From positions 11,104,299 through 11,168,298 of the forward strand of contig NC_049980.1 of NCBI RefSeq assembly GCF_000003815.2: a stretch of 64,000 nt of DNA, read 5' to 3'. The notes below the pieces were generated by a model. The model was given only the letters and a program-made list of their open reading frames with translations, searched no databases and was not told the DNA's origin. The stretch is from Branchiostoma floridae. Its lineage: Eukaryota > Chordata > Leptocardii > Amphioxiformes > Branchiostomatidae. Positions 7,309-29,800 of the stretch are shown here, in pieces; within the stretch, counting starts at the first letter, position 1; each line of letters begins with the position of its first letter. Both the position numbers and the translations under genes were made by a program.

Positions 7309-10300
7309 TCAATTCAAACCTGTAGACCATATGAACAGGTAATATGACCAGAAACAGATGTTGAAGAATGAAAAGGCAGCCAAGAACACTATACGGGTCA
7401 CATAATCAATCTGTTGGCTCAAGTACGTGTGTACATCCGGGTCATTTATGTCAGAGTCAGTGTCAATGACGTCAGAAGTTGCATCTGTGACGTCAGTCAC
7501 CATGCTACCGTCTGCCATGCTACTGGTATCCTCCGATGATTTGCCGGTGGTGTTCAGGGTGTCGTATCCAGAGGTTTGGCTATCTACCTCGTCATGCAGG
7601 TCGAGATTTTCAGAAGCGATTTGAGGGGGATGACTCTCGCGGATGTTGTTCATAACTGGGATTGGACACCTGGGCACATCCACTTCCGGCTCAGGGTGGA
7701 TTTCCGCAACCACTACTGACAGTTCACCTGGTCCATTATCCATTTTGTAGTCTCGCATGTGGGGCGTATTTCTACCTTCAGAGAAGGAAGTCTCCTGGGT
7801 TGGTGGGACGTAAGCAATCCTCCATCCTTGGCCGTCCGCTTGCTCCCACCATATCCCGAGAGGGCTGGAATATTTCGCACGAGGGATGCAGACTTTCAGC
7901 TTTCGTGGTTTGTTCTCTACCGGGCGCTGAATAGACAGAATTAGAAAATGTCATAATCAAAAATAATATAATATTGTTTATGAGCGATGATGATAGCAAG
8001 GGTTGTGAGTTTTTCTTAAAGATGGAAGTGATCTCCATTAAAGGTACAGAATAAAGTCAAACATGTACAATTTGCCACCGCTTCATAATGACCACCTGGT
8101 CAATGTGGCTACCTTTGGTGGTCTCTTAGATGATTTTTCCCACAAGCATTACAGAGTTATGTCTATTGGGAACACCTGTCCACATAGACCAGATTCTATC
8201 GGACCTCTGAGTGGTCTTCTTGTGTAGTCTTGACTGTAGTCATCCGGAAATATTTTGGGAATCCAACGTAAGATAATTCTTTAACACCTCCCATCCCCCG
8301 GATTGTGCAAAAATAAAACTACTTACCTCTAAGTTCTCTTCCCGTCTGCTGTAAATGTAGTAAACTACGACAGTCTCAGCCAGGGCCAGGACGATGAAGA
8401 CGAGACAAACGATCAGCCAAATGTCTATCGCTCTTGCAATAGATACCTGCGGGGTAGAAACAAACCAAAATACGGACCGTCAGTGTCGTGATGATGATGA
8501 TTTTTGTGATACTGGTTTTTATATAGTACAATTTAGGTACGATATCATCGATTGTGGTGCTAATAGTGAAGGATACAAAAGAGTTATGTTACTTCTTACT
8601 TCATTGTTGACCTGTATCTTCCTGCATTTGAGAAACAAAACAGTTGAACACATAAAGCTTCGCTAACTCTAAATCAACGTCACCCAAAAGTGGCTTGCAA
8701 AGTTGGGAAGTTGGGGCAAGTGCATCTATCGAAACATTACATGTACTTTCGTATTACCCACCCAGAGTATTCTGTGCTTCAGGACGCCCTTAGAGATCAT
8801 CACCAGGAGTGGGATGATCCCGAGAGTGATGCGGCCGGAGATGGCTTTCTGGTGCAGCGGCAGCCATGTCTGCATGAGAGACGCCACCACGAGGATGAAA
8901 GACGGGATGAAAGTAGTGGAGATGTAGATCCACAGGCGCCTGGTCATACCGAGCTTGACTGATACCGTGGTGTAACTGTTGGTGTCTGAAAACAAATCAA
9001 TCACACACGGTGTCAACACAATTCACATGATTAAAATCATATTGAAACAGTATGAAGCAAAGTTGTGGTGTAATAAGTTTTAACACAAAATATGGACTTT
9101 TGATTGTCCATCTTCACTCTCCGCCTGGGAATGAGTAATCCACAACTTCTGTGACGTCATGTTTTTAAGGTTAAACATGTAACGCATTGAGCAGTGGATC
9201 ATAATCATAAGTTGCTGAAGTTTATGGTACACCTCTGCCCCTGTTAAGCCTAATCATCCACTAACATATCCGATATTGGTACTAGTAAATCAATTTTTCA
9301 TACATGGACACCATAACACTGTTTTATCTGCATAACCGTAACTCACGTTCCGTGACAAAGACTATAGTCGATAGTTGGATAGTCGAAAATTAAAACTTTT
9401 TCTGTTAGAAATTACACTTCAGAATTATTTGTACCGACAAAGATGAGCTTGCAAGCGAATCTTGATAACAGTGTCATGGTGATGATGGTCAAAATATGTA
9501 CACCTAATAAACAGAAGCGTCTCCCTGAATATCTTGCCGTTGTACTTGAGTGGAAGGCAAGTTCAACACGAACGGTTCAAAGCTTTCAAACCTTTGTGGA
9601 GGTTGTTAGCGCTGCGAGCCACCCTGCGCGCCTCCTCTGATACCCTGCGTGCTTCCTCGGGACAGTCCGCCTTCTCCATCGCACACTCCCCCACAGTCGT
9701 GCGGCAGTCCTTAGAGCTGGTGAAGGGGCACGTCTCAGCATTGTACTCACACGATTGCCTGAAGTAACTGCAGTCTGGAAATTGTAATTCGATAGTATAA
9801 GGAATTCGCTTTTTTGTGTGTATTTCTTTCTTTATCAATGTTTATTTGTTCCCTTAATTTGCTTTCTTGTGTGTCTGTAGTTATTTGAGTACAGTACTAG
9901 TGTTGCTTGTTTCCACATCCTAGGGGCGTTAGGAACACTGACCGGAAGTTAGGTCAAGGGTCCCAGAAAAGTTTATCTTATTTTCCGTCTTCAATCTCTT
10001 GGTACATGTATGTCTGTTGTCTTATGAGAGCCTGAGTGGGAAAATGCATTAAGCAGTTTAGCACTGAGAAATTTGCAGCAATGACTGAGGAAAGAATTTC
10101 ACAAAAAGAGATGTTTTATCTTCAATTTTGCGTTGGCTCTCTGTCTGAATAAAAGGTATATGCTACATTTGCACTTTTAAACTGTCACGATAATGTCGTT
10201 GTGATGGTGGTATCATTTACAAACCTGAGACGTTGGTGAGAAATGACTGTAAGGTCCCAGACAGCTGTACCCTGCTCAGCATGAACTGAGACACCACTTC

Positions 10301-12329
10301 GGCACTGTCAGTCTTTATCTGGTCCCGGGATGTGTCGCTGAAGGACATCAGTCGGAACCTGACTCCGTTATCTGCACGTATGGTAGGAAAACAAGCATTA
10401 TTCATCTATTGTCTGGTAATTTCAATTACTCAAGTGAATGTTAGATTTTTAAAACATCATAACATTATAAACAGGTGGTTCCTAATCTATATCTAATCTA
10501 CGGACGTGTCCTGATCATTTAGTTCATTAGATTCTAGCTAATTCTGACAACAAATTCAAACCAACAAAACAATAGTCTTTCTACAGTGCTGGCACCCCTT
10601 CCTCGCGAAGGTACCAATGAGAAATGCATCAGATTTTTGTTCAATCATTGCATTCAGGTCGCTCAACGGCCTGTGTGGGACGTGTGTAGAAAACTACTTA
10701 CATCCATGAAGCGGCATGATGCAGCCCTGACTGTCAAATGGAAAGTGTTCAAACTTCACTCCCGAACAAGATACCTGTAGGTCACGGCTGCAAAGATAAA
10801 TCAAACACTTATAAAAGAGTACAAGGTATGAACAACGATGTGTAGAATTCATGGTTCTAATGAAAACCTTGCACCAGACTAGCTGGTTGCCTTCGTTTCC
10901 GGAGGCTTTGTGTTTGGTATACATGACTGTTATGTTCTTGTGTGTCCGCAGTCATTTAAACACACAGTCAGTGTTAGGAAGTGAGTGAGAATATTATCTA
11001 AAAATCTGACTTGGCACTTTGGAGAGTGACAGGAGGTGTCAGACATGACAGGTCACGGGGTCAATGGAAGAGACTATTAATTTACAGGATGGCATAGTTT
11101 TTGGTCTGTCTTCTCGTCTGTGTTTTCATGGTTATGTATTTTAGATATGCTGGTGACCTTCATTTAGGATAAGTTTCGTACTCACATCATTCTAAAGACA
11201 GTCAGCCCACTCTTGTGCAGCCACAGGGATATCCCCGTGTCCGATGTACTCCCCCTGTCCACGACAGATGTCCTTCTGATGTTCCTCCCGAAGCTCAGTG
11301 GCGGTGTCCAGAGTAGGTCCGGGGGAACGGGAACCCAGGAGGTGGTCAAGCCCTTTAGTCGAGGATCTATCCAGGCCAGTACGTACTCTAGAGTCGTAGA
11401 TATATTCTGTAGAAAAACAGACACACGTATACTGAAAAAAACGGCCATATCTGTAATTGTTTTCTCGTTTACTGTGGGTCCAACACTCATTACTCACAAG
11501 CCTAAAACATGCTTTCGAACTGAGTCAGACATACTGACAGGTTATACAGTTCAATGTACAGTTGTAAGGGAGAAGTTAAAAAGGTATGCCATTGTTTGTA
11601 AATGAGAATTGTTGAAACAGAAATGATGTAATAGAAATGATGTAAAACAGTCAAATGTGGAGTACCAAATAAGAATAGCATTTGTATCGTAACATGACGT
11701 CACATATATACTTACCACATGTTCATCATCAAGCCAGCCGAGACGACGGACGTACACAGTCGAAGAGACCTCCGACCATCTGTCCGTGTTGCTTTCTAAA
11801 ACGACATTGCAGTTGTTGTTTTTTACTTGCTGATCCATGCACATTCATGACGTACTTTATACGTTATAGGTGACCATAACACATTAATTTGGACATTTAC
11901 GCCTTTCAAGATTACTAAGTCAATGTCCACCACTGATGTTCGGACTACGCACGACGACATTACCTAAAATCGAGGAGGTTAAAGAGATACTCCTTGTTGT
12001 AATCTACCTTCTATTACACACTTTTCTTTTGGCAGAGACTTATACGTGGTAATGAATTCTACAAATTTTACTATTACTGGACAGGTGTTGAAAATAAAGC
12101 TGTGGCGGTCCGACTAACAATGGTTGAAGTAGGCCAATATGGCTATAAAGCATTCTAGTAAAAGATAGCTTAGATAAATGTCAAAGTGCAAAGATTGTCT
12201 CCTACCCCCACTTGTTGGTCTCTGACTCTTGTCATATCTTGGCGGTAGCGGCTCGCCTGTCTTCCAGAGCTGCCATTCTGTCCAGCTGGCGTTACCCCCA
12301 CTCTCAGGCTCGTCCGGGTTATACTCGCC
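7309..12329 (-). CDS. Cys-loop ligand-gated ion channel portion (exons 17-25 of the chimeric gene)
   Basis: Extracellular beta-strands: RWSEVSSTVYVRRLGW, LAWIDPRLKG (the W-x-D-x-R-L signature), WTPPLSFGRN, then the Cys-loop CSGVKFEHFPFDSQGC. Exon 22 (9592-9774) is a 61-residue cysteine-rich insert between beta-9 and beta-10. Exon 23 carries beta-10, M1 (IYISTTFIPSF) and M2 (SGRITLGIIPLLVMIS, with conserved 9' Leu). Exon 24 is M3 (ARAIDIWLIVCLVFIVLALA). Exon 25 has a long Ser/Asp-rich cytoplasmic loop and M4 (YVTRIVFLAAFSFFNICFW). The family forms pentameric channels in the plasma membrane. The M1 proline and the M2 arrangement resemble the GABA/glycine branch more than the nicotinic one. No Glu precedes M2, so an anion channel is the more likely guess, but the usual PAR motif is missing. 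Confidence 0.9.
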
Positions 12330-15300
12330 CTTTGGTAATGGAATACGCAGCGTCAAGGAAACTATCTTTTTACTTTTTGTCACGGTGAAATTAAAGAGTA
12401 GATATACCCAGTTGCCATTTTTTGGCGAAGACTTATTTATAGTAGTGTTAGGCTTGGTTAGATGCCCAATTTTTGGAGGTTGTTTCCAAAAGCACCTGAA
12501 AACCAAACCTGCAAAAGTTAAAGTACTGGAACTGAGACAATCTCAAATTGTGATGGACAACATATTTTGCACTTTACAGCGTATGTCGTCAGACGAAAGT
12601 TAATCCATTGATAGTTACTTTAAGTAAATACATTTGTATTATCATTTATGAAAATGTTCAATCACACCACCAAATGGTCTTCAATTATAACACTTACAGC
12701 TAGGTATTTATCCCATATGCCGTCTCCTGCAGCTAAAGCATTCCCAGGATCGTCTGAAGTAGCTGCTACTGATGCGAGTGTGGACGGGGGCTCTTCAGTC
12801 GTAGTTGGGATGCAAGGTGTATCTGTAACAATATTTTCATTTCATTTTAGATTTATGATGATGGCGATGATGATGATGATGTTGATTGTGCCCTTTGTGC
12901 ATATTAGACTGTTGGAAGGCAGACTGTTACTGAGGAAGACTATTTCTGTTGGTGAGAGCAGACGGACATCAACCCGAATATAATGATGACGGATGTGATC
13001 AACAGTAATGGACTTAAAAACGCGCTTGGGCACGCTTGGGGGAAGACGTTACTCTTCTAACGTTACAAGGAGAAGACTGTAACTGAAAAGTGAGGGAAAC
13101 AGTCTAGGAAACCTTTCTCTTTCTCTTTAATGCATTGTAAGGGGATGGTTGAATATTTTCGAAACCAACTCTGTCAACTCATCTGCCTTCTCCACATGTT
13201 TGGTTTATTTCTCAAACACAAAGCGCGCGTAAGTAATATATCAACTTCATTATGTCTTTCGGTTTGACGTATGAATTCTTTGTGCCTGATAAAAACTTCC
13301 TATACTCACTGTCAAAGTTGACTGGCCTCATCATCATTGTAGATCTCTTGAGTGAATAACCAGACCCCTTCCAGGTGTGCCAGACAACCCCTTGAGACGG
13401 GTCACAGTAAGGGTTACAGTCCGTCAGGTACTTCCCGTTTAGGAACGCGTAGCCGCAACCTGAGGAGAATGAAGTACACATTTATGTTACTCCATGTCAT
13501 CATCTATGTCAACACCATCTATAGCAATCACCTTTAATGCGAAAGAAGGAGGAGGAGTAGCCTCTGTTGCAGTCTCCAAATGGGGCGAAAATTCTTTCCA
13601 CCGTAAACTCCCTTCCTCGGCAAACTCCTGTTCCCGGCATAAGAGAACCTAGCTGAGCAACGTTAAAAATCGTGAACCAAATAAGTCAATAAAAAAACAG
13701 CCCCGTTCGAAGATTGCAACGTAGGCTAGAGGAGGAAGAGCAACAAGAGTGGCAGGGGAAAAAGAGGAGGATGAAGATGACATCCTCTACAAGATATGTC
13801 TTACCTGGTGGATACCACCATCCGCCTTCACTGTACGTTGACGCACAGTTGAAGTCTTCATTGTCGTCATTCTTCACGTCGAAGGTTGAGAATTGTTGGC
13901 CGTTGGCGTTGTACCGTCCGTCTGGTGCCAAACTGTCTCCTGCGTCACCCGCAAAATCTCCTATCTGAAGATGTTGATTGGCAAAAATGTAAAAGAAAAT
14001 TGAAATGGCTTTCTTGTTTTCGTCATTAATCATCTTTCTATCCACTTAATTCAATGCTGCTTAGTAAATCACGTCTTCGGTATCAGTTACCTCCGCAAAA
14101 CAGAGACAGAAGTATTGTTTCCGGCCTGTGCGTTTGTCTGTCTGTCTGTCTTGGAGCGTGTCTGCAGATGTTTCTGCAGTTATGTAAATAGTATAGAGTG
14201 GCAGATCTAGAGTACAAGGTAGTAATGGTGTCAAAAGATGTCAGCAAAATTGGAAGTCTTATTTCGCTTGTTATTTTGGTAGACCATTTACAAATTCTAT
14301 TAGAATTTTAGGTTTCTGGGGAAGGGGAGGCATTGATCGTGTTTTGGCAACTGAGTGAAATAGACAAGAACATCCGTATTGTACCTCCAACGCATAGAAC
14401 GAAGTAATGTCTCCAACGTTGAACGTCCGGTAGGTCGCCTCAGCCACGTTTCCGTCCCAATCCTCGAGCTCAATGATCAACTCGTAGTCCGACGTTGACG
14501 TCAGGCGATGTGCTTTCTCCAAACCCATCCACACCTCTCCGCTTGGGTCACCAAATCCTGCCTGGTAGTCACTCCAAGGCCTCCCAAAGTCCACCGACCC
14601 GTCCTGTCGTCGTTGTAAGATGGTGGAACCACAGTTCAAAGTTGTCATGCGACAGTAGACTTCGAACGGAGGATATCCCACGGAATAGACGCCATCTTGT
14701 CGTTCCCCGGACGCGAACAGGTCGGCGCAATCCATAGGCCCACTCGGTGGGAGGCAGTCGTCGGCTGGAAGTGGATTGGTCGTTGAGGGGAACGAAAGAG
14801 TAAGTCATAAGAGAAGTGATATCTGATGTGTTTTCCAGTAGCAATGTTCATCCGTAATTGCTGTGATATTTACACATATAAGGTATACATTCCCCTGCGC
14901 TCGGCCGCGGCCTATACAATATATAAAAGCACCTTGGGAAAGCTCTGCTAAACCGGGCTGAGATTATTTCCACTTGAGGTGGCCGCTGACCATCAACGAT
15001 CCTCTATGGGTAACGTTATCTCCTATGTTTTTCTTTACATAAAGTTGAATTTGTGATTGACATACAGTTGGTTAGAGGCCACACCCACAAAAGTGGAAAC
15101 CTCAGCCCGATAGAGCCTCCGGAGCTCCCAAGATACATTGTATAGGCCCCGCGAGAGGCTCTGTGAGAGAGAATGAAGTATGAAGTATGCAGTGCCAACC
15201 TTGGGGTCTGATGACCATGAGAGTCCTCCGCAGAGAATAGCCCGCGCCCCTCCACGTCTGCCACACCACGCCCTGCGACGGGTCACAGTGGGGATTGCAG

Positions 15301-18300
15301 TCACGCAGGTACTTCCCGTTCAGGTAGGCATATCCACATCCTGCAGTAACAAACGTCATCAAGTTCAGAGCTCCATAATTACAATCAGTGATCACAAAAT
15401 CGCCGTATCTAATGGTGAGTGGTAGATCTGTATATCATTTTTCACACTATGGTTACGACGTAATAAAACCCGAAGGTCACTTCAAGGTTACGGGTTACAT
15501 GAAATTGGTCCGGGACAGCATCTCTTCGTTTTTCTAAGTACAAAAAATCATGATTGAGACAAGATAGGCTCACTGAGAGTGCTAACTGATCAGTAGGAAA
15601 AGCCATGGTTAACCAGGTATCTCACTGAAGCTGTGGCACGTTGGCGGCGTTGCGCCGTCCTAGCAAGGACCTGGTTTATGTACAACTATGAATAAGAACT
15701 GAACTGAACTGATGAATAAGAAGACAACAAAACACACAAAGCTAAAAAAGATTCATTTTCGTCGATGAAATTCGCTGAGGGCTCTGTGAAATTCACTCGA
15801 ACGCCACCAACATGCCGCAGCTTCAGTGAGACAAACGCTTTTCAAAGACTGCTCAGGAAAGTCCCTACTCCATTTTGAAGTTTTTTTTTTTCATTTACCT
15901 CATCACAAGAAAAATAACCTTAACATCTTGAAGAATCCTTGGATAAGACAATAAAAAGAAATCTCACCTGGGGGATACCACCATCCGCCCCCGCTGTACG
16001 CCTCCGCACAGTTGAAGACGCCGTTGTCGTCGTTTTTGCGGTCTGTAGTAGTGAACATCTTTCCACTGGAGTCATAGCGTCCCACCGGGCCCATGCTATC
16101 TCCAGCGTTACCGGCGTATGCGTCAATCTGTGGGCAAAAAGACAAGAACATTGCTTAAGAGTTGATATAATGCGAGAAAGTTTGAGGAAAACATCTAAAC
16201 CTAAATATTAGCTATATGTTCAGGCCCCTTTCCACTACACGATCGCTGAGCGACCAAATTTGGATTTTGGTTAACCTGATGCAAGATTTAAAAGTATGAC
16301 AAAACACTCAAAACATAAAAGAAACCGTTCTTTATGTAAGAAATTCGTTGAGCGATCTGTCATCAAAGTGGTCGCAGCCTCCAGAGGAAAGAGGTGTTAG
16401 AAACTGGACATTTCATGTAGGACAAAGATGTCGAAATTTTAAGCTGACACTGAAATCAAAATCATAGCAAAAGCGACCGGAATGCTCAGAGAATGTGTAT
16501 GAAAATGTACCGTCAACTCGTAGTTGGTGTCCTCTGTTCCAACAGAGAACACGGAGTAGCTGGCGTGAGCCGTCACACCGTCCCAGTCTTCCAGAAGGAT
16601 GTGGAGCATGTGATTCCTTCTGGAGGAGATGACACTGATGTTCTTCAGCCCCAGCCACATCTCTCCATCTAAGTCCCCGAAGCCGTTCTCGTAGTCACTC
16701 CACTCCCTCTCGAAGTCCAAAGAGCCGGATGTGCGGCGTTGAATGACGGTCCCACCGCATCCAAACGGGTCCATATCGCACCAGACGTTAAACGGCGGGT
16801 CGTCCACCGTGTAGATGCCGTCATCTCGGGACCCCTTCGCGAACCAGTCTGCGCAGTCCCTGGGGGGTGGTGGATCCGGGGGACAAGCTATCGGGAAAAG
16901 TTTTCAACAGCACCATTCAATTATACAAGTACATGATGTGTACAATGTTTTTTAAATTCAAAAGTAGTCCCCTAAACGTAAATAGGCTGGTCAAACCTCA
17001 GTGAACAATCCGCTCGGGGGAAGTGGTAATTTTTAAAACAATGAAACCTGGAACAATATAATATGGGGATGGAACAAGACAACAAAGGCTTGCCCTACCT
17101 ATCTTATTACAACACATCATGCAACTTATAATTGTGTCATCTCAACGTTCATGGTGTTCATAGAGACATAAATGGCTATTCGGGACCGAGACATGTAAAA
17201 ATAAACAGTATGTGATTAGTTCGTCTTTAGTCTTGATCATCTAATTTGTCTCGTATCTCAGTCAAAGTAGCCAGACTTACGTTTCAATTGACCTCCATGG
17301 AAGCCGTAAGTCTCTTGGTCAGAGGAGCCGCTGACGACAATATCTGCAGAACGTGATAATGGACCTCAATGATACACAAACCACAGGAAAGGCGGCAATG
17401 ATCGGTAAAAAAAAAGCATCTAATTATTACTCTTGTTTATCTTAATTCTGACAAGTAAATTGTGACATTATTCATTATCCATTTGAGTATGATAAAGGTA
17501 TAGAATAAAAATCAGCCGATATCGATTAACTAGCCTACATCAATAAATCAATTAATGAACAGACAGCCTTAAAGGCAATCTTATATGTATCCTTAATTTA
17601 CGCCAAAAATAGTTACTCAAGCAACTGGATATGGATTTGAAACGGTCAGACGTTTCGGATAGAATATCCAGTTGCTTGAGTAACTATTTTTGGCGTATCT
17701 TATTACCTGGATGTCTAACCTACATCGACGTATCCTTAATTTACAATATAGGAAATTATAAAAACTTTTACAGCGAGCCTAAACAGTTTAAAATAAACAG
17801 TGAGCTTACAGTGAGCCTTTTAAAAATGAGTTAGTGTGCTATTGCTTCAAACAAAGGTCTTGTCTAAAGAAATACGCAGCGACAAGTACACAGTGCACGA
17901 GGATGATATTGGATGTTCTGTGACAGAGTTTTGTTTCGTAACACAATGGATAGAAATGCACAGTAGTGAGACGCTGACCATACACAGCTGTTGGATCAGT
18001 GTGAATGAGTGTATGGCTGTCTTCAGTAATGTCAGTACAGCCGGTTGAGTAGCCGCTCTGCAGAATCGGCGTCCAAACGATGGAAGGGTCCAAAGGGGAA
18101 TCATCCAACTCAAACCCAGATGTTACCTGAGAAATATATGGTATTAGAAGTTAAATTGTTTTATCTTTGTGTTGCTTTTTTCTCTGCAAAGACTGGAATT
18201 GGACAGTCGTTAATCTGGCGTAGTCAATATTTGGTGTTGGAATTTACAGTCACGTTTCAGAATTATCTCCACCAAAACATTTAATCGTAAAATTTCCATC

Positions 18301-21300
18301 TTTTTTGTTTACTTTCATGCTTTTTGTTGTTGTTTCAGTTATGATTAATTAACATTGGATCCTTGATTGTATGACCCACAACAATGCCTGATTCTATTGA
18401 CAATAAATGTAGTTGTAAAAAAATCAAAAACATGAGCTATGAAAAATCAAAAACATGGGAAATGGTTTATGGGCTTTTGGATCCCAATCTGCATGTATGG
18501 CATGATTTCACGATGCATATTACTAAGTACAATTTAACTATTGATGAGTCAGATTCTAAGGATTGACGTTGCACAAATTCACAGAAATAAAGATCTTAGC
18601 TAAGTTTTGCAGTCTATAGTATGAAAATCTGCTCACCTGTGACACGATGCAGAGCTTGCGGACATGTGTGCCGGGTCCCTGCAGGTCTACTGTTGTGAAG
18701 GTGTACGTGTTGTGGTAATTCTCCACAGCGGGAACAGTGGTCATGTACGGATCAGAATCACTCGCACTGAGATAAACATAGCAGGATTGTAGTTTGACTA
18801 TTACATTCTGATTGGGGAAACTCCTAGTATGTTTATGAGTGAACATGTGCCAATAATTGCAAAGAAAGAGGAATAAAAAATGCATTGAATAACGTCGGTG
18901 AAGGATAGACATCCAGGTAATAAGATACGCCGAACAGCAATCACGTAAGCAACTGGATATGGTTTTGGAAACGGTCTGACATTTCAGGTAGAATTTACTA
19001 CCTTTCGTCATTGTCTCCAGTTGCTTCAGTAATTGCTATTTGACACTAAAAATGCACATTTAAAGAAAGAAAAGAACTTTCGTCCCAACACTATCACACA
19101 TTGTTGCATCGCCATACCCTTAGTGTCATTGTCTTCCATAATTTACTACCATATTCCATTGACTATCAAATAATTGTAAAGGTACATGTTCAAATGTTTT
19201 ACTTGAGAACGCATTCGATACAAGTTATGAATGACTAACGGTCATCACCTTATCTGTACCACCATGACCGGAGCGTTGGATTTTATCTTCCTGAACTCGT
19301 TCGCGGGGACGTCGACGTCGAAATACTCCCCTGGTTGTAGAGTCGTCGTTTCACCTCGGACGGTAACCTAGAAAAGTAGACACATCTACATTCCATGAAA
19401 GTTCGAGGTCATCTAGCAAAATGTACCCACCATATTGCCCTTGCTCGGACACATCGACTGAACTGTCGTAGAATCGCGCAATTGCCGACAAAACATCGGG
19501 TGCATTACTGCAGAAAATGTCATTTAGAGCTCGCAGGCTCTTCGGTCGGTTGATTTTCTTTCTGTGTGACAATAATAGTGAGTACGCTTCAAATGAATGT
19601 TACAACTCCCTTCACGGAGCTGTTATTACCTAGCTATAGCAACCTTGGCAGTAGACGTTACCAAGTGTTCTTAAAGCTACTCCAAGGTACAGGTAAAACA
19701 CATAATCACTTATTTGTGTTCTACGCGACTTAGTATGGCAATACATACCTCGGTGTCGTCATTGGCAGCAATGACCCGGAAAAGGCCGGCAGAGCCCCGA
19801 CCTTGAACCAGGTCCGGTACGGCCAGGTACTCCGTCCCCCATCCGTCCAGAGGCAGGACCTGGTCACTTCTCAGGCTACCACTGACCACTGCCACCGGCG
19901 CGCTCGAGGAGATGTGGGATCCTAAGGAGAATGTATATCATCAATCAATACATGTAGCTAACTTCCCAGTGTACGCGCGAAGACCATATCTATGTAGCAG
20001 AGAATCCTTTGACTGGGGTGGGAATGTTGACAAAACTACTATCTTTATAATGAGAATTATTTTTGCAGATAACCAAAGCAAGAACAAAACCATCTGAACT
20101 GAAAGAGATTTGACTTTTGAATCGCTAAGTAAGGGTCCGGTCAAATATGTCATGCGATCTTTTATCGATAGCAAACTGAGGAAATTTGGGGGATAGTCCT
20201 AAAAATGCGGCTGTCTTGTTACGGAAATGCTGCCTGCGTGAAAGTACTGGCATTTTTATACTACTGATGTGGCAGGGTATTTGCTTGTCCACATGCGACC
20301 TGAAAACAGAATATCTAACGAGACACACCGGTTAAGTCCCCCGCTGACTGGACCTGTAGCCCCTCATATTCCCCCAGTTCGACGTCAAAAGCTGTCCCGG
20401 CGGGGTAGGCCGCTCCGTCAAACGTGACGTCATGAGTGGGTGTGATCGTGACCGTGGTGTCGGGGTAGGCGCTGATCACTCCAAATTCTGTCATTCGTGT
20501 GAGGAACAGTATTTAGCAAAAGGAAACCCGACTGAAAGGGAACTGTAGTTAGTTCTTGATGTACACAGCGATTGAGTCAGACAAAGAAGACGGAAACTCC
20601 CAATTGTTCATTTGGTGAACAATTAATCCCTTTATAATGTGCTTTACCAATTAACTCCCGTGAAATATCGTACTAATGCAATTAGTACTGTTTACACACT
20701 TTATTTACTACAAATAAGCCTCAATATTTGCCCTTCTTGATTCGGCTACGATTTGGCGTGAAGAGCAATGGAACGCTTGCCGGGGCATCAAAAAGAAGTA
20801 CTCTAATATAGTTTTCACTGTAACGTTACTTGGACATTTGGTTCATCTAACAAAAACAAATCGGTCTCACAGTAATTCGGGTCATTCTGACTAGAACATT
20901 GGCATAGCTAACACCCTGACTGTCAACTTTTATCATACATGCTCATCTTTTTTGTAGGATATAGTGCAGTTGGTTCTATCAAAGATACCAACGTTACAGG
21001 TGCATGTAGAAGTGATCGATTTAAATCATGCTCTTTCAAGCATTACCTGAGAGTTGCCCAGAGGCGCTGTACCCGGGAATGAAATATTCGCTCCCAAGAA
21101 ATGAAATCGGCAAAACCCTATAGGCTCCTGTGATGAGCCCTTCACCGGAAACAGCCAAAAGGTTGATGTCCTGGTCGGAAGTGACGTACACAGCTTTGTT
21201 GTCTGATTGGCTGCCGCTCATCTCCACCGAGCTCCGGGGCAACGTGACTGTCACCTTCTGTGTTGGTAAAGTTATATGCCCTTTCCTGTTACATTTTGTA

Positions 21301-22819
21301 TCGGACTTTGGAGCATTACGAAATGACATCGATATCGCTGTTTATAGGATTGTGCCGTTATTTCTGTCATGGAAATATTGTCATGTTATTCAACGAATTA
21401 CGAGGCGTCACTTTTACATAGACAAAAACGTTGTGTAAAGTTTAGGATGTTTTCTTTTCTCTTGAATAACATTTTCACACTGTGCGCCATGTTCAAATGA
21501 TAAAATCAAAGGTTTCACAAATCCAGTTTTTGTCATTCAGTGATCGCCGTCTATTAGGAAGGGGTTCTGACTTGTATGTGTATTCAAGTATATCATATCA
21601 TATCATATCATATCATATATCATTAATAGGCTATGCTTATTGCTGCGGTACAATGTGAACCTGGTTAGAATTGCCCTCATAGAGGCGACAGACGGTCACC
21701 GAAACGTCGGTGATAATAAAGCTGTGGTTGTGTGAAAATAGTATCTTTACAGTTTACTCAGTAATGGGCCAACCTGATGAAACTATTCACGAACGTAACG
21801 GTTTTTACCTCGTCTGCTGACACGTCTACTGTTGTGGTGTATCCATCCGCCGGGGCCTCTATGGTCACCGAGGTGTCAGACGTACTCGTGATGTACAGCT
21901 GCGGCTGGTTATTAGCGTTTTCAAAGCTCTCCAGAAATGACAAGACGAACTCTTTGCCTTTCGTGTATAGGCATCCTTGAAGGAATAAACAGACAACCTA
22001 TAAGTTTTCTACACGATTTCGTACACGACAAAATGTGTAAGAAGAAAAGTAATTTCAGCTTTGAAAGAAAATGAGATGAATGTCGTTGTTGTGGCGTGTA
22101 GGTAAAAGAACATAGTACTGTTAATTCCACGCGAATAAATATACGGATAATCCGGCCTGCCGTCCATTTGTTGGCTTATTTTTCACCACAAATGCCTTTT
22201 GAGATGAATAAATATGCTTCATATCAATATTGCACGTAAAGCTATATTGGGGTAACGGGCTAGGTTGCATCAAATGTTCTCCGAAAACGGATTCAAGGAT
22301 GGCAAATTTCCGTTATTAAAAAGTTATCGACCGATCTGAAATCCCATGTCCCAATCCTACTTCTGTCTAGTTTGTTTTGATTATAGCGTGGTCACATTCG
22401 TCGTAGGCCGTCGTGCGATTTTGATATCAAGGCAAGTTGTGACAGAAACAATATAAGATTAAGACCGCCATTGCTGTATAACGTCATGTAAAATGACGGC
22501 TGAAACTTGAAGTGGACCTTTACAACTGTTTCAAGAATGCATACAGTATGCTATCGTACAACGATCGTGCGACGAGTGTGACCGGGTTCTAAGTACTTAA
22601 CGTTACGGAGATGCTGGCTGCTTAAACTGTATATATCTCTCTCTCTCCCCCATACAACCTACTAATCCCCTCCCTATACGTCCCCTGTACACAATTGTAG
22701 CGTGTTCACGATGAATGGTATTCACACCTACCTTCGCATGTAGGGAATCCATAGCCGAGGAAGCTCCCCAAAACTGCCAGCATGATCCATTGCCTCGGCA
22801 GAAAGCCTACTTTAGTCAT
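7309..22819 (-). CDS. Chimeric IgGFc-binding / double fibrinogen domain / Cys-loop ion channel gene (25 exons, 1517 aa model)
   Basis: Exons in transcript order: 22732-22819, 21809-21975, 21047-21257, 20329-20487, 19749-19921, 19249-19367, 18637-18766, 17979-18126, 17281-17343, 16511-16887, 15968-16127, 15200-15340, 14385-14764, 13805-13964, 13310-13459, 12698-12822, 12206-12329, 11716-11795, 11186-11406, 10702-10787, 10225-10371, 9592-9774, 8762-8985, 8327-8446, 7309-7926. All introns are GT-AG, phases match at each junction, and the sum is 4554 nt with one terminal stop. Order of parts: signal peptide (1-25), IgGFc-binding domain (about 30-419), FReD1 (420-645), FReD2 (646-875), Thr/Pro linker (876-917), channel (918-1517) with four membrane segments. 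The predicted protein is a plasma-membrane ligand-gated channel subunit with a very large extracellular adhesive module. Donors gtcagc (exon 8), gttggc (exon 12) and gtgtgt (exon 4) are weak. The alternative is two adjacent genes, with the lectin part ending by read-through after exon 15 (stop at 13212-13214). Confidence 0.7.
9592..9774 (-). CDS. Cysteine-rich insert exon of the chimeric channel (exon 22)
   Basis: A 183-nt exon, phase 1 at both ends, so it could be skipped without changing frame. It encodes DCSYFRQSC, EYNAETC, SSKDC, VGEC and EKADC, giving six cysteines in about 40 residues. A helical, charged segment PEEARRVSEEARRVARSANN follows. It sits exactly where loop C of a Cys-loop receptor would be. 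The paralogue has a homologous exon (25907-26053) with eight cysteines. Confidence 0.85.
12698..12822 (-). CDS. Linker exon joining fibrinogen domains to the channel (exon 16)
   Basis: A 125-nt exon with acceptor ttacag and donor gtaagt, phase 1 in and 0 out. It encodes TPCIPTTTEEPPSTLASVAA, a Thr/Pro/Ser-rich stalk likely to be O-glycosylated, and ends DGIWDKYLA. The end lines up with the end of exon 1 of the neighbouring channel paralogue (QDWASFKA), and the following introns fall at the same place and phase. So this exon replaces a signal-peptide exon with an in-frame splice acceptor. It contains no start codon, which argues that the channel part depends on upstream exons. Confidence 0.75.
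13310..14764 (-). CDS. Second fibrinogen-related domain (FReD2), exons 13-15 of the chimeric gene
   Basis: Exons 14385-14764, 13805-13964 and 13310-13459 repeat the three-exon layout of FReD1. The middle exon is exactly 160 nt in both, so the domain was duplicated as an exon set. Motifs: DCADLFASGERQDGVYSV, FEVYCRM, STILQRRQDGSVDFGRPW, WSDYQAGFGD, EVWMGL, KNDDNEDFNCAS, GGWWYPPG, GCGYAFLNGKY, HTWKGSGYSL, MMMRP. The last exon ends at a good donor (gtgagt, 13304-13309) in phase 1, which joins in frame to the linker exon at 12822. If that donor is skipped, translation runs 33 codons further to a stop at 13212-13214, giving a possible secreted lectin isoform. Confidence 0.92.
15200..16887 (-). CDS. 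First fibrinogen-related domain (FReD1), exons 10-12 of the chimeric gene
   Basis: Three exons (16511-16887, 15968-16127, 15200-15340). The N-terminal part starts after a Pro-rich spacer with DCADWFAKGSRDDGIYTV, then FNVWCDM, GGTVIQRR, the SLDFEREWSDYENGFGDL signature and EMWLGL. These are hallmarks of fibrinogen C-terminal domains. The middle exon has DRKNDDN, FNCAEAYSGGGWWYPPG, and the last GCGYAYLNGKY, WQTWRGAGYSL and MVIRPQ. Length and cysteines fit the family. The calcium loop, usually D-x-D-N-D-like, reads DRKNDD, with Lys at the third position. FReDs typically bind carbohydrate or acetylated groups, or act in adhesion. The ligand here is unknown. Confidence 0.92.
15450..15860. repeat. 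Dispersed repeat with inverted core
   Basis: CACTGAAGCTGTGGCACGTTGG (about 15626, two parts) pairs with CCAACATGCCGCAGCTTCAGTG (about 15806). Outer sequence resembles 24925-25090 (GGTTACATGAA...CTCTTC) and 46135-46260 (GACAACAAAA..ACACAAA, GAAATTC). It lies in the intron between exons 11 and 12 of the chimeric gene and appears to be a multi-copy family within this window. Confidence 0.5.
17281..22819 (-). CDS. Signal peptide and IgGFc-binding (FCGBP-type N-terminal) domain, exons 1-9 of the chimeric gene
   Basis: The start ATG is at 22817-22819. The first residues MTKVGFLPRQWIMLAVLGSF form a basic start, a hydrophobic core and a small-residue end, a clear secretion signal. Exons 2-9 read like the IgGFc-binding domain of FCGBP-related proteins: GKEFVLSFLESF at the start, repeated YIT/VTI beta-strand motifs, GSEYF and GTEYL motifs, AANDDTEV, PGEYFDV, SNAPVMVV, then SGYSTG and HTLIHTDPT. 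The last motif normally precedes a YG...YGFPAG-like end, matched here after splicing by ETYGFHGG in exon 9. In known proteins this domain occurs in secreted mucus and adhesion proteins. Its exact ligand cannot be read from the sequence. Exon 8 uses a weak gtcagc donor, chosen because it restores phase and domain continuity. Confidence 0.8.
17587..17744. repeat. Foldback element with perfect 33-bp arms, flanked by direct repeats
   Basis: Arms at 17599-17631 and 17665-17697 are exact reverse complements, beginning TACGCCAAAAATAG. The loop holds a further GAAACG/CGTTTC pair. The direct repeat GTATCCTTAATTTAC occurs at 17587-17601 and 17730-17744, which may be a target-site duplication. A related copy lies at about 18890-19025. 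Located in the intron between exons 8 and 9 of the chimeric gene. Confidence 0.7.
18890..19025. repeat. Second, diverged copy of the 17.6-kb foldback family
   Basis: It contains AAGCAACTGGATATGG and a diverged complementary arm ending CTCCAGTTGCTTCAGTAA. The outer sequence GACATCCAGGTAATAAGATA is the reverse complement of the tail of the copy at 17.7 kb. It lies in the intron between exons 6 and 7 of the chimeric gene. Confidence 0.6.
21595..21622. repeat. (ATATC)n microsatellite
   Basis: Five to six tandem copies of a pentanucleotide (atcat) in the intron between exons 2 and 3 of the chimeric gene. Confidence 0.85.
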
Positions 22820-23843: not shown

Positions 23844-26800
23844 TTAGAATAGCAGATAGAAGAGCCAAAACCAAAGGTTGAACACCAAGAAGGCACAGGG
23901 GAATGCGATTCTTGAGGCTCGATCTATCTTCCTTGTCATCTCCTCGGATCGTGGCAGTCTGTCCTTCTCATAGAGCTCCCCGGTGTTTGCTCTGGACCCG
24001 TAGTTCAGCTGAACCTTCCACTGATTACTCGGCAGCTGCTCCCATGATGCAAGGCTTGGCTGCCTGAACTTGGCTCGCGGAATGTTGACCAGTGGTTTGA
24101 CTTTGCTCTTTGTTGTCTTCTCCTGGAGGAAAGAAAACCATGCCATCATATTCTACTCTTTGTACCTGCATCGTAAGAGTATGAATGGTAACGCATACAT
24201 GCAGTATTAAGGTTCATTTATGTACAATCAAGCAACACGATTTTTCGATAAAAATGATCGTTAACACCATATAGTCCCCAAGTATAGGAAACAAGATTTT
24301 TTTTCAAACCTTTCAATGCACCATGGTTCTAACCAATGCAAATAAATAAGATGCGGAAAGAAGATATCGCAAAACGTCCCCGTATCTAATGCTAGTTCAT
24401 CTTTATCCGCGAGTAGCCTATATCCACTTTATTAAAAAAAACAGGGTATTCAAGGACATCAAGTCGGCGGATGGTGGGTTCAAATTTTAATATTCAACAA
24501 CAAAACTGCAATTTAAAAACAACCGTCTGTCGAATTGATGTCCCTAAATACCGTTTTTAACTACAACGGATATAGGTTATCCCGCGGATAAAGGTAAACT
24601 AGGGACAATTTCCATTCATGAGAAGTAAACCTGCATGCAACAAGGGTGACGTAAGCGTGAGTCTTTTTTTCATACCTCGTAAGCAGACATGTCCACCCCC
24701 ACAGCTCCAGATGAAGATGGTATGTACGGGTTGTACATGGTCATCCATTGCTTGTTGGGCAGACGATACCACCAGGAGCTCAGGGGACGGTTCAGATGTG
24801 GCCGAGGAATGTGGAAAGATGGCGTGCGCTCCAACGACGCCTTCTTTTCCTGACAATAATTGTGTAAGCCAATTTAAATCATTGTGTCTATCACAATATG
24901 TTTACTTTATTTCACTGGACCCGGAGGTAACTTAAAAGTGTTACAACGTTACTGGTTACATGAATAGGACTGTAGCAGTATCTCTTCTTCCTAGGATAGA
25001 AACATCATGAGACCAGCTCAATTGCTCACTAAGCATGAAGACTAACCCAATACACGTAAGAGAAACAGGGGTTTCAAAGGCTCCTCAGAATTTTCCCCTA
25101 CCTATTTAGACCGGGATGGTTTTGATCAAAGAAAGGACCCCTACTATTTTGATAAGTGTTGTATGTTCTTTAACGTGTTGCTGAGGTGTGGCTCTCATCA
25201 AAATACATTTAACGTTCTATCCTAGGGACGTCCCTAATCATATGTCTCAATTTGTAGAAATCAATTAGAGGACGGAAGATGTGATAGAATGAATGTACCT
25301 TTCTCTTAAGCCTGTCGTAGACAAAGTGCAGAACCACTGTCTGCAGAAGGGCCAGTGTGACGAACAGAATACACGCCATAATCCAGATGTCGATTGCACG
25401 AGCCTCTGACACCTGAAAAGACAGGAAATGCAAGACATGAAACCATGAATCATTACTGTTCATGCACTAATTAATGTCTAAACCCTAATGCCAGCTTGCT
25501 TTAGATAAATAATATCATTAAACTGGTAGCTTTAGTTACCCTCAGAATGAGATGTCTCATGTTGTGTCCGGATATCATCACCAGAACGGCAAAGATGCCC
25601 AACACGAATCGGCCCGCAATGGCTGATGGGACGAGCGGCAGCCATGTTTGTAAGAATGATGAGATGACTACCACAGTGCACGGGATGAACGTTGTGAAGA
25701 AGTAGGACAGAAGGCGGCGTTTCAGATGGATGCGCACTTCCAGTGTTGTGTAATCATTCGAATCTGGAGGAAACATATTGCCTCAGTTTTGCACTTTGGA
25801 TTCATGTTATGTCTTTATGTCCTCATTAAAGTGAGATCAACCATTTGTGTTATTAATCAAGTAGGGACTAGCGACGGCTCTGACTTTGATAGAGAACGAA
25901 ACCAACCGTTTTGATCGTCGCAGCTGTTAACTCTGTGTGAACATCGTCCCACGCTGCTTTTACACTGCTGGCAAACTTGGTCATCGCGACAGGAGGCAAC
26001 ATTTAGACAATGTTCAACGTCATGGTCACACTTCTGGCTGAAGTACTCACAGCCTGCAAGAAAAAGGGCGCAATAAGATAACATTGTGAATTCCATGTAT
26101 CTACCATGTATAAACATATAAAGAAACTGAGATTTGATCACCAGTATGCAACATAGAAAACCATATTCTTCCTCTGTGCCGGACAGTGAAACACAGTCAG
26201 CACAAAGGTCAGTCAGCACTAGGGACAGGAAAAACACGGCTTGGGCCAGAGACAGGGAAATATAGTCAGGGCCAGGGACAAGTTAACAAAGCACCAGGAA
26301 AAGGGGGACACAGTCAGAAACAGAAAAACACAGTCAGCACCAGGGACAAGGAAACACATTCAGCACCAGGGACAGAGAAACACAGTCAGCACCAAGGACA
26401 AGGAAACACAATCAGCACCAAGGACAGGGAAACACTATCAGAACCAAGGACAGGGAAAGAACAGTCAGCACCAGGGACAGAGAAACAAAGTCAGCACCAA
26501 GGAAACACAATCAGCACCAAGGACAGGGAAACACTATCAGAACCAGGGACAGGGAAACACAGTCAGCACCAAGGACAGGGAAACACTATCAGAACCAGGG
26601 ACATGGAAACACAGTCAGCACCAAGGACAGGGAAGCACAGTCTTCACCAGGGACAGGGAAACACGATCAGCACCAGGGACAGGGAATCACATTCAGCACC
26701 AGGGACAGGGAAACACATTCAGCACCGGGGACAAGGAAACACTGTCAGCACAAGGGACATAGAAACACACTCAGCACCAGTGACATGGAAACACACTCAG

Positions 26801-29800
26801 CACCAGGGACAGGGAAACACATTCAGCACCAAGGACAGGGAAGCACAGTCAGCACCAGGGACAGGGAAACACAGTCAGCGCCAGGGACAGGGAAAAACAA
26901 TTCAGAACCAAGGACAGGGGAATGAACTGGGTGGATATAGAAATCCGCCATATCTCATCCATGCATCTATCCCCCTACCCCTCTAGGAGACATACTTGGC
27001 CTTTCATTCAGGAAAGAGCTCCTCTCTAGCCTGATTTCCACCGCTTTTAGCATGTACTGTGACCTCACAGCGGTAGCGTCTGTAGTGATGGGAGCCTGAA
27101 GACTTGTATTAGATGTGAGTACGTTGAACATGACACCATTATCTATTGATTAAACAGAAAAAAACACGGTTTACCGGAAAGACAATGACAACGTGCAACC
27201 TCAAGGGTATCGTGGAATCTGGCCAACGATATTTCTGTGCGCATATACTGTCAGCCACTGTTAGGTTTAGGAAGCTCTGGATAGCGGCACTCACGCCAAT
27301 TGAAACGCGCGAAATTAATGCTGATAAAAATTCTGTATGTAAGGACTCCTGCAATTACAAGAAGAAAAGACAACGAATGCTGTAGGAATCTGTACTTACA
27401 TCCGTGCAGTTTCACACTACACACTTGCGAGTCGAAGGGATACCGCCACAGTTGAACACTGCATGTAAGTTTCAAAGTGCGCCTGCAACAACATAAATTG
27501 GAAAAAAAAGATCACATATACTATACGGAGAAGAAACTAACGTAACTTATGAGTAGGGATGAAACGACAAAGAATGTAACGCCTCCATTGTGAAGGCCAT
27601 CGAAGATTACAGCCCGATATCAGGTTTTCTTTTGCAACACTGAACCAGCTTTATATGATGTAAGAATAGAGGACATGATTGTTACGTTATACTGTAAAGC
27701 ATTATCCCGCTGCGGTGGAGCCACATGGAAATCCCGCTGTCCGACTTGCTTCCCTGGTCCACGACAGAAGTCCGCCGAACGTTCCTGCCGAAAGATATCG
27801 GCGGAGTCCAGGCCAGGTCGGCGGGGATGGGGAACCACGAGGCCGCCAGGCCGCCAAGCCTCGGGTCCACCCAGGCGAGGTTGTACTGTATCGTCGTGCT
27901 GAGGTTCTGGGGGAGGGGGGCGTCATAAAAAAATAACACAAAAGTTTAAAGCAACTTTGACATTTCTGTTTCTCACCATATAGTTGATTTAAAACGGTGT
28001 TATAACAAAGAAAAAAAATAACCGCCTCTGTCCTTGTACAGATTCTGGCCCCTTATCGCTAAGTCTGCGTCTACATAGGGTGTAGACACCTGAGAGTGGG
28101 TTCAGTGGGTTAAAATTGTGTGCTTACGTTAGTATCTGCTTATTCCCGAGTTGTTGACAAAACCTTATCGCTTAGTTCATCTCCAACAGCTGTTCTGGAA
28201 CGTAGTTACCTTCCTGGCACATTGAGAACCGGCTTTACCCGTCAATCAAATGCCTACTTTTCCCGGGTAGGAGGTAGCACAGTTGTTGTCAATTTCCGAC
28301 AAGGACAACATCTGCTTGACGGTATCAAATTACTACAAGGCTTAAGGCACTATCATAAGGAAGACCTGAACCACTATACCGGACGGCGTAGGGGTGAAAA
28401 CTGAAATTATTACATCCAAAATAAAAACAGCTACGGCAAAAATAAAATAACGTGCATCATTTCCCAACCGAGTACAAACGACATGCCAATCCACATGCGA
28501 TTGCGGCATACGGAACATAGAGATATAGGTGCGAACACTCAACGCACAAAGTGATTACAATACTCTGTTACTGGAGGTTACCCTCCCAGAGTAACAATTC
28601 AACTTGGTATTAAACATCTTATAAATGTATCAAATATGTGAATGATAAAGTAAGGGGTCTTTTATTTGTCTTCAAAAACTAGGAAAAGCCAAATACAGAG
28701 GTACGCTTATGTACCAGACAATATTTGCCTAATGCAGAACTAACAGACTCAACAGCAATCATACTTTGTACAAGATATTGTCAAACGACTGTGGGCTATC
28801 ATGCTGTCATCAAAGAACATTGTGTACATGTAATGTAACTTATGTCGTCTGTTCAACGATATCTTACCGAGTGTTCCTCTGACAGCCATCCTATATTCCG
28901 GATGTGTACGCTTGAGGAAACATCTGTCCATCGTTCTAAACAAAAATGTACAAGAATCATCTGTCTGAGAATAGAATACTCATGAAATATTTACAACCAT
29001 TTACCACATGTCGGCCTCGACAACGAAAACCTGCCATTATCTGATTGCTTGGAATGAGACAGGAAGGTCTGTCAATTACTCAGCGTTTCAGCTTGACAGT
29101 AGACATACGAAAGGCGTATAGTGTCTCAGAAAGCTGTAACGACAGGATGATGCTTTATATGTTTACATCTTCAAATCTTGTTTTAGCACTGGCGTAGTCA
29201 TATACATCGTAAGATCGTCGTACGAATACCAAATAAGGCCAATAATAGGATTTTCAAGCGTATTTCAACTGTCTTGTAATAAAAAAAGGCAGAATTCGAT
29301 CCCTAATGGCGGTTGGATTTGTGAGAACCTGCTTGAACGTCCTACAACATCAGAATGGTACGACTAGTGTGACCGCGCCCGCTCTACCTTGCTCGTTAGG
29401 TCTCTGGGATTGTTGGTACCCAGACGGCAGAGGACTGCCTGTTCTCCAGACCTGCCAACTCTCCCAGTTTGCGTCTCCTACTAAAGCGTCGCTCCCGTCC
29501 AGTCCTGGGTGCAGCGAGCCCTGCATACACAAACGTAACGTTACATGATATATCAATGGCATTATAATCAGATATCATGTTCTTGGATATACCAACGATA
29601 AAGTGTATAAAGTAATGACAGTGTTGTATGTGTGGTCACAGGTTTCTTTTTAAGCACCTTCAGCACCATTCATGAAGTTTGATGAAAAAGATTGTAGAAC
29701 TGGAAAAGACATGGTAAGTCCAGCCCCTTTCAAGACTCAATGCAGCAGTTAGGCAATGTTTGTACCAGTTCATAATATGTCTTTATAATGACTGTTTTAA

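Follow-up and report, generated by a model that had tools for sequence, protein, structure and literature searches.

Cys-loop receptors are usually studied as compact neurotransmitter receptors. Their N terminus lies at the top of the extracellular domain, the Pro-loop core (F/Y)P(F/M)D is a motif of the pentameric ligand-gated ion channel (pLGIC) superfamily, and an Arg at 0' with no Glu at -1' in M2 is an anion-channel motif. Fibrinogen-related domains (FReDs), C-type lectin, SUEL and FCGBP-type modules are recognition or adhesion domains, and FCGBP itself typically carries VWD/C8/TIL repeats. An N-terminal domain is present in one prokaryotic pLGIC, DeCLIC. As regards other domains joined to this channel fold, the relevant parts of the survey by Jaiteh and others (2016; PMC4795631) discard the terminal regions and describe associations with other domains as known at the genome level only. 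Banyai and Patthy (2016; PMC4967905) name the Branchiostoma belcheri sequence 269420_PRF0, with Neur_chan_memb, as a novel architecture common to its B. floridae ortholog; it appears in one sentence, in a section that gives no architecture, family or function for it, and the authors caution there about prediction artefacts. Our searches of the open-licence literature, some of them narrow, found no description of module-bearing Cys-loop receptors.

Here we describe a lancelet locus at which a single gene probably encodes a Cys-loop-type receptor subunit with an N-terminal IgGFc-binding domain and two fibrinogen-related domains, as judged from its gene model and domain content. It lies in a 64-kb stretch of contig C2 (the window) of a genome of 513 Mb in 431 contigs.

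Gene structure and domain content

The fused gene was rebuilt from the sequence as 25 exons with 24 GT-AG introns and consistent phases, with its start at 22819 and its stop at 7309 on the minus strand, giving a reading frame of 1517 codons plus a stop. This model is identical to the one proposed in an earlier sequence-only reading of the window, which had also pointed to a channel-only paralogue; that gene is present as well, with a first exon of its own. We refer to the channel part of the fused gene as channel B and to the paralogue as channel A. The features, in the order in which they are transcribed, are as follows.

30602-23844 (-): channel A, the tandem paralogue, with 11 exons, 566 amino acids and its own signal-peptide-like exon at 30602-30492 (gene model)
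22819-22732 (-): exon 1, start codon and hydrophobic, signal-peptide-like N terminus (MTKVGFLPRQWIMLAVLGSFLGYGFPTCE), donor in phase 1 (gene model, hydrophobicity scan)
21975-17281 (-): exons 2-9, IgGFc_binding (FCGBP N-terminal) module, phase 1 at both ends (gene model, Pfam)
16887-15200 (-): exons 10-12, fibrinogen C domain 1 (FReD1), class 1-1 (gene model, Pfam, PDB comparison)
14764-13310 (-): exons 13-15, fibrinogen C domain 2 (FReD2), class 1-1, donor ACA/GTGAGT at 13310 (gene model, Pfam)
13309-13204 (-): read-through of exon 15 to an in-frame stop at 13212, then AATAAA at 13209-13204; tail of -17.2 bits (coding score)
12822-12698 (-): exon 16, linker from phase 1 to phase 0, either 125 nt (12822-12698) or a 29-nt micro-exon (12726-12698) (splice and coding scores)
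12329-10225 (-): exons 17-21, Cys-loop receptor ligand-binding domain (LBD), 14 residues between the Cys-loop cysteines (gene model, Pfam)
9774-9592 (-): exon 22, Cys-rich loop C insertion with six cysteines in channel B (sequence comparison)
8985-8327 (-): exons 23-24, M1, M2 and M3; M2 begins SGRITLG and lacks a Glu at -1' (gene model, Pfam)
7926-7309 (-): exon 25, M3-M4 loop, M4 and stop (gene model, Pfam)

The domain search that had been suggested as a check on the joined protein returned four Pfam families only, all above their curated cutoffs and in this order: IgGFc_binding (residues 130-398, 1.3e-50), two stretches of Fibrinogen_C (7.5e-118 together), Neur_chan_LBD (residues 948-1122, 8.6e-11) and Neur_chan_memb (residues 1222-1505, 1.7e-12, covering profile positions 1-233 of 233). 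The IgGFc_binding, FReD1 and FReD2 modules are each in phase 1 at both ends, which is a mark of exon shuffling. Exons 1 and 15 also both end in phase 1, so that skipping exons 2-15 would join the signal peptide to the channel in frame.

The junction between ectodomain and channel

The donor at the end of FReD2 (13310) and the linker acceptor are both in phase 1, and the junction is in frame, as had been claimed. No methionine is present among the first 182 residues of the channel part. Hydrophobicity and splice-scored scans of the 487-base gap between the two (13309-12823) gave no credible signal-peptide first exon for the channel; an independent first exon of this kind at 12822-13212, together with transcripts that end after exon 15, is what the sequence-only reading had named as speaking against the fusion, and the search for such an exon there came back empty. 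The best channel-only first exon within 13309-12330 scores -2.1 bits. The same method gives the first exon of channel A +8.1 bits, a control that is partly circular because the channel A exons belonged to the codon training set. A DNA search for a second haplotype copy of the junction returned only the locus itself and the FReD1 exon.

An alternative is that two adjacent genes are present, one for a secreted FCGBP-FReD-FReD protein with its stop at 13212 and another for the channel, with such pairs co-duplicated throughout the family. The AATAAA at 13209-13204 starts only 2 nt past the in-frame read-through stop; for a point picked at random, the probability that this hexamer begins within 12 nt of it is 0.0065. 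The 600 nt that follow the channel stop at 7309 contain no AATAAA and no ATTAAA. ATG-to-donor frames with a hydrophobic stretch and the right phase can also be found in the upstream introns and exons (for example 16363-16276 and 14033-13949), and a scan of 23840-12823 gave hydrophobic phase-1 first-exon candidates starting at 19011, 18912, 18885, 18299, 16363 and 14033. These candidates would serve a separate channel gene but look like chance occurrences, and a precedent of a lancelet lectin/fn2 fusion refuted by ESTs is given in the relevant part of Banyai and Patthy (2016; PMC4967905). Against two genes, the gap next to the channel part supplies it with neither a start codon nor a signal-peptide exon, and the sequence read through past FReD2, at -17.2 bits, scores as non-coding. 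We regard this arrangement as unlikely.

The same polyadenylation signal may instead belong to a secreted isoform made by intronic polyadenylation, or it may be the end of a separate gene. A reading compatible with the fusion is that both forms are made, with intronic polyadenylation yielding a secreted FCGBP-FReD-FReD protein and splicing from the same donor yielding the membrane channel. The donor at 13310 is a fair one (6.7 bits) and the stop and AATAAA lie just inside the intron, as this would call for, but AATAAA is common (34 occurrences on the minus strand of the window) and the tail, again, does not score as coding. Production of both forms is conceivable, although we lean against it.

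The linker exon itself had been described as having an acceptor and no start codon. It indeed lacks a start codon, but the acceptor at 12822 is weak (0.8 bits) and the 125-nt exon is only weakly coding (2.2 bits). When 36 single exons bridging exon 15 to exon 17 were compared, the best was the 29-nt micro-exon at 12726-12698, encoding DGIWDKYLA, which scores 13.3 bits versus 8.9 bits for the 125-nt exon at 12822-12698. The threonine/proline linker of channel B may therefore be partly intron. The donor at 12698 and the frame are common to both versions, so the fusion holds with either; the exact total of 1517 codons is uncertain to the extent that the length of the linker is.

The channel and its tandem paralogue

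Along the minus strand the order is channel A, the ectodomain modules and then channel B. Channel A has no recognition modules (30602-23844) and is 66% identical to channel B over the LBD exon. The (F/Y)P(F/M)D Pro-loop core is present in the Cys-loops of both, C-SGVKFEHFPFDSQG-C in B and C-SVQLWRYPFDSQV-C in A, with 14 residues between the cysteines in B and 13 in A. Channel B has the Neur_chan_LBD and Neur_chan_memb domains as well as this core, and as it misses the strict 13-residue Cys-loop we place it in the pLGIC superfamily as a one-residue variant. The closest PDB sequences to its transmembrane region are glycine receptors. M2 has an Arg at 0' and no Glu at -1', which suggests that the channel is of the anion type.

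Loop C is replaced by a Cys-rich insertion of 75 residues, compared with about 10 in the glycine receptor, between two aligned blocks. The insertion was located in channel B (9592-9774), in channel A (25907-26053) and at L040/L028, L024 and L045; it has eight cysteines in channel A and the three other loci read and six in channel B, and the insertion peptides matched no Pfam family above cutoff. The classical neurotransmitter site has probably been remodelled, and with loop C replaced in this way a standard neurotransmitter is unlikely to be what gates the channel.

Some of these differences could be taken to mean that channel B is a decaying pseudogene that has lost its first exon, the modules being part of another gene: channel B has no first exon of its own in the gap, its Cys-loop is one residue longer and its loop C insertion two cysteines poorer than those of channel A, and the channel stop is not followed by a polyadenylation signal within 600 nt. 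Its exons nevertheless retain open frames, GT-AG sites and phases through to M4, and the domain profiles are matched over most of their length. We consider decay very improbable.

Several other features of the window were recorded. A 26-bp minisatellite of 23 copies lies within a channel A intron (26326-26919). An 11-bp tandem repeat (unit CCAAGGTATGA) occupies 50915-59825, with its main array of about 519 copies at 51940-57667, and creates long spurious open frames on the minus strand. The open frames at 48348-49734 (-) resemble, by eye, a multi-span membrane transporter.

Related loci in the genome

Channel B as query had 60 exon matches in the genome. With one LBD exon of another member as query there were 28, of which 20, channels A and B among them, reached E ≤ 1e-7. 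From these matches we put the size of the channel family at about 20 to 28 loci. A tree of 18 LBD exons and one glycine receptor piece left 11 of 16 inner branches unresolved, the sequences being too short.

The upstream DNA was read at 15 other loci (14 of the 18 other strong matches and one of the eight weaker ones) in stretches of 8 to 10 kb each, or 20 kb for C17; C2:10.795, C17:17.567, C4:11.023, C275 and seven weaker matches fall outside this set. Every one of the 15 has one or more Pfam modules above cutoff upstream of the channel, on the channel's strand and within about 10-20 kb. The modules found by Pfam, all on the channel strand, are listed here.

C17: fibrinogen, C-type lectin, F5/8C, Sushi
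C9: C-type lectin, Sushi, TSP1
C2:14.28 Mb (L044): C-type lectin
C4 cluster of six loci, L042: PAN, Methyltransf_FA, TSP1
C4 cluster, L045: SUEL lectin, Sushi, TSP1
C4 cluster, L040: EGF, TSP1
C4 cluster, L046: PAN, EGF, TSP1
C4 cluster, L051: three Sushi, TSP1
C4 cluster, L053: TSP1, about 6 kb before the LBD exon
C4:6.05: C-type lectin, Sushi, EGF, TSP1
C5: EGF
C2:10.82: EGF
C19: PAN, EGF
C2:10.77: two C-type lectins, EGF
C14: seven TSP1

The EGF loci have 7 to 14 repeats each by motif count, Pfam having been run on one to a few of them. By-eye module guesses that gave no Pfam match (L039:5645-5905, L042:6136-6390, L047:1306-1614, L048:4953-5258, L050:9617-9862 and L054:2971-3333) and module pieces below the Pfam cutoff (L041:2150-2380, L041:509-868, L039:7411-7785, L040:4266-4622, L042:4068-4319 and L045:5467-5694) are left uncounted. 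On the channel side, L039:3504-4400, L044:3606-4001 and L054:7066-7731 gave no Pfam match, and the channel at L054 consequently rests on weak protein matches.

The architecture had been thought unique, and part of that claim stands: among the loci read, the combination of FCGBP and FReD modules is seen only at the channel B locus, and none of the 66 FCGBP matches in the genome, this locus aside, lies within 100 kb of a channel match. Recognition modules ahead of the channel, on the other hand, are shared with all 15 other loci read, channel A being the exception in the family, and the fused gene seems to belong to a larger set of Cys-loop channels that bear ectodomains.

In 15 stretches from 14 loci we counted 71 module motifs on the channel strand versus four antisense, all four EGF-like; EGF motifs make up 45 of the 71 and come from four stretches, and L044 has none on either strand. 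Two controls were counted in the same way. In eight canonical receptor loci, with about 3.3 kb covered per locus, the only motif was an EGF-like one at L004; it is on the strand of the receptor and by eye looks like chance. In 23 kb of the window outside the fused gene there were no module motifs.

Among these other loci, the join between module and channel was modelled at L044 only. There the last C-type lectin exon has a phase-1 donor. The exon that follows is entered through a phase-1 acceptor and continues from a linker rich in proline and threonine into the first channel segment; no signal peptide was seen in this exon. With linker and channel start in one phase-matched exon, L044 argues against pairs of separate genes, whereas the signal-peptide-like first exons that loose scans place between module and channel at eight of 14 loci would favour them. 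By their best splice sites the Sushi and TSP1 modules of L043, the EGF and TSP1 modules of L046, the last EGF of L047 and a Sushi of L039 are class 1-1; the L043 lectin and the L051 TSP1 have splice sites that are harder to assign. At L043 and L046 the second channel exon has a phase-0 acceptor, like its counterpart in B, and with class 1-1 modules ahead of it a linker exon from phase 1 to phase 0 is expected. An exon of this kind, 20-32 nt long and scoring 13.0-15.7 bits, is the top linker in six of the eight loci scored (B, L043, L046, L051, L040 and L047), compared with a best antisense score of 9.6 in the same six intervals; the pattern is not clear at L049 (best of 4.0 sense and 10.3 antisense) or at L053. 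At L039 a threonine-rich stretch and the channel second-exon motif share one open frame, in which internal splice sites are possible.

Two further observations concern the C4 cluster. At L045 (342-1524 and 3933-9485; C4:10.985-10.995 Mb) channel exons are followed by SUEL lectin, Sushi, EGF-like and TSP1 exons and then by the next channel, a tandem order that is the same as in the window. Beside the channel gene at L040, 7866-9088 (-) looks by eye like the C-terminal part of an organic-anion-type transporter.

Proposed origin and function

We suggest that the fused gene arose by exon shuffling, with class 1-1 modules inserted via phase-1 introns ahead of the first channel exon, and that it belongs to a lancelet family whose subunits differ in their modules (C-type lectin, SUEL, fibrinogen, Sushi, TSP1, EGF, PAN and F5/8C). 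Given where the N terminus lies in known Cys-loop receptors, an assembled pentamer would hold its five ectodomains over the pore. Together these could act multivalently, as a sensor of glycans, mucus or microbial surfaces or as an anchor to them, and binding by the ectodomains might either concentrate or gate the anion-type channel. The likeliest role, in our judgement, is that of a multivalent sensor or anchor at a surface that meets mucus, food particles or microbes.

How far binding is coupled to the pore is a separate matter. The modules may be a passive tether to matrix or mucus, with a small ligand gating the channel at a remodelled orthosteric site, which would also be compatible with the fusion. 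The LBD is retained and FCGBP and FReD modules are established as adhesive, but the long Cys-rich insertion in loop C means that the usual small-ligand site is changed; we hold passive tethering to be plausible, if somewhat short of probable. That module binding gates the pore directly seems to us rather doubtful. The broadest reading of the family is that lancelets possess at least 20 ionotropic pattern-recognition receptors, each gene with a different module set as part of a repertoire of surface sensors, whose shuffled, lectin-like ectodomains bind glycans, mucus or microbes and directly gate the pore; this is speculative and would, on balance, be a surprise.

A chordate channel family with large and variable adhesive ectodomains would tie fast ion signalling to the recognition of surfaces, mucus or microbes and would show how far the channel fold tolerates N-terminal additions. 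It would also be a clean example of a receptor family built by exon shuffling and a source of natural parts for engineered sensors.

Comparison with known systems

The B. belcheri sequence 269420_PRF0 may be a member of the lancelet channel family. DeCLIC is bacterial and lacks the exon-shuffled set of lectin and adhesion modules, and it is on these grounds, rather than by a comparison of folds, that it is set apart from channel B. In FCGBP the IgGFc_binding domain is near the N terminus, as it is in the fused protein, but the latter has no VWD-type repeats in its Pfam list and ends in an ion channel. Fibrinogen_C is shared with the FReD proteins (ficolins, FIBCD1 and angiopoietins), and the best PDB matches of these domains in the fused protein are ANGPTL4 and FIBCD1; the fused protein differs in having two such domains in tandem ahead of a channel. 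With the glycine and GABA-A type Cys-loop receptors, channel B has the LBD and M1-M4 in common. It differs from them in the large N-terminal recognition ectodomain, in a Cys-loop of 14 rather than 13 residues, in the Cys-rich insertion in loop C and in an M1-M2 loop that is two residues longer.
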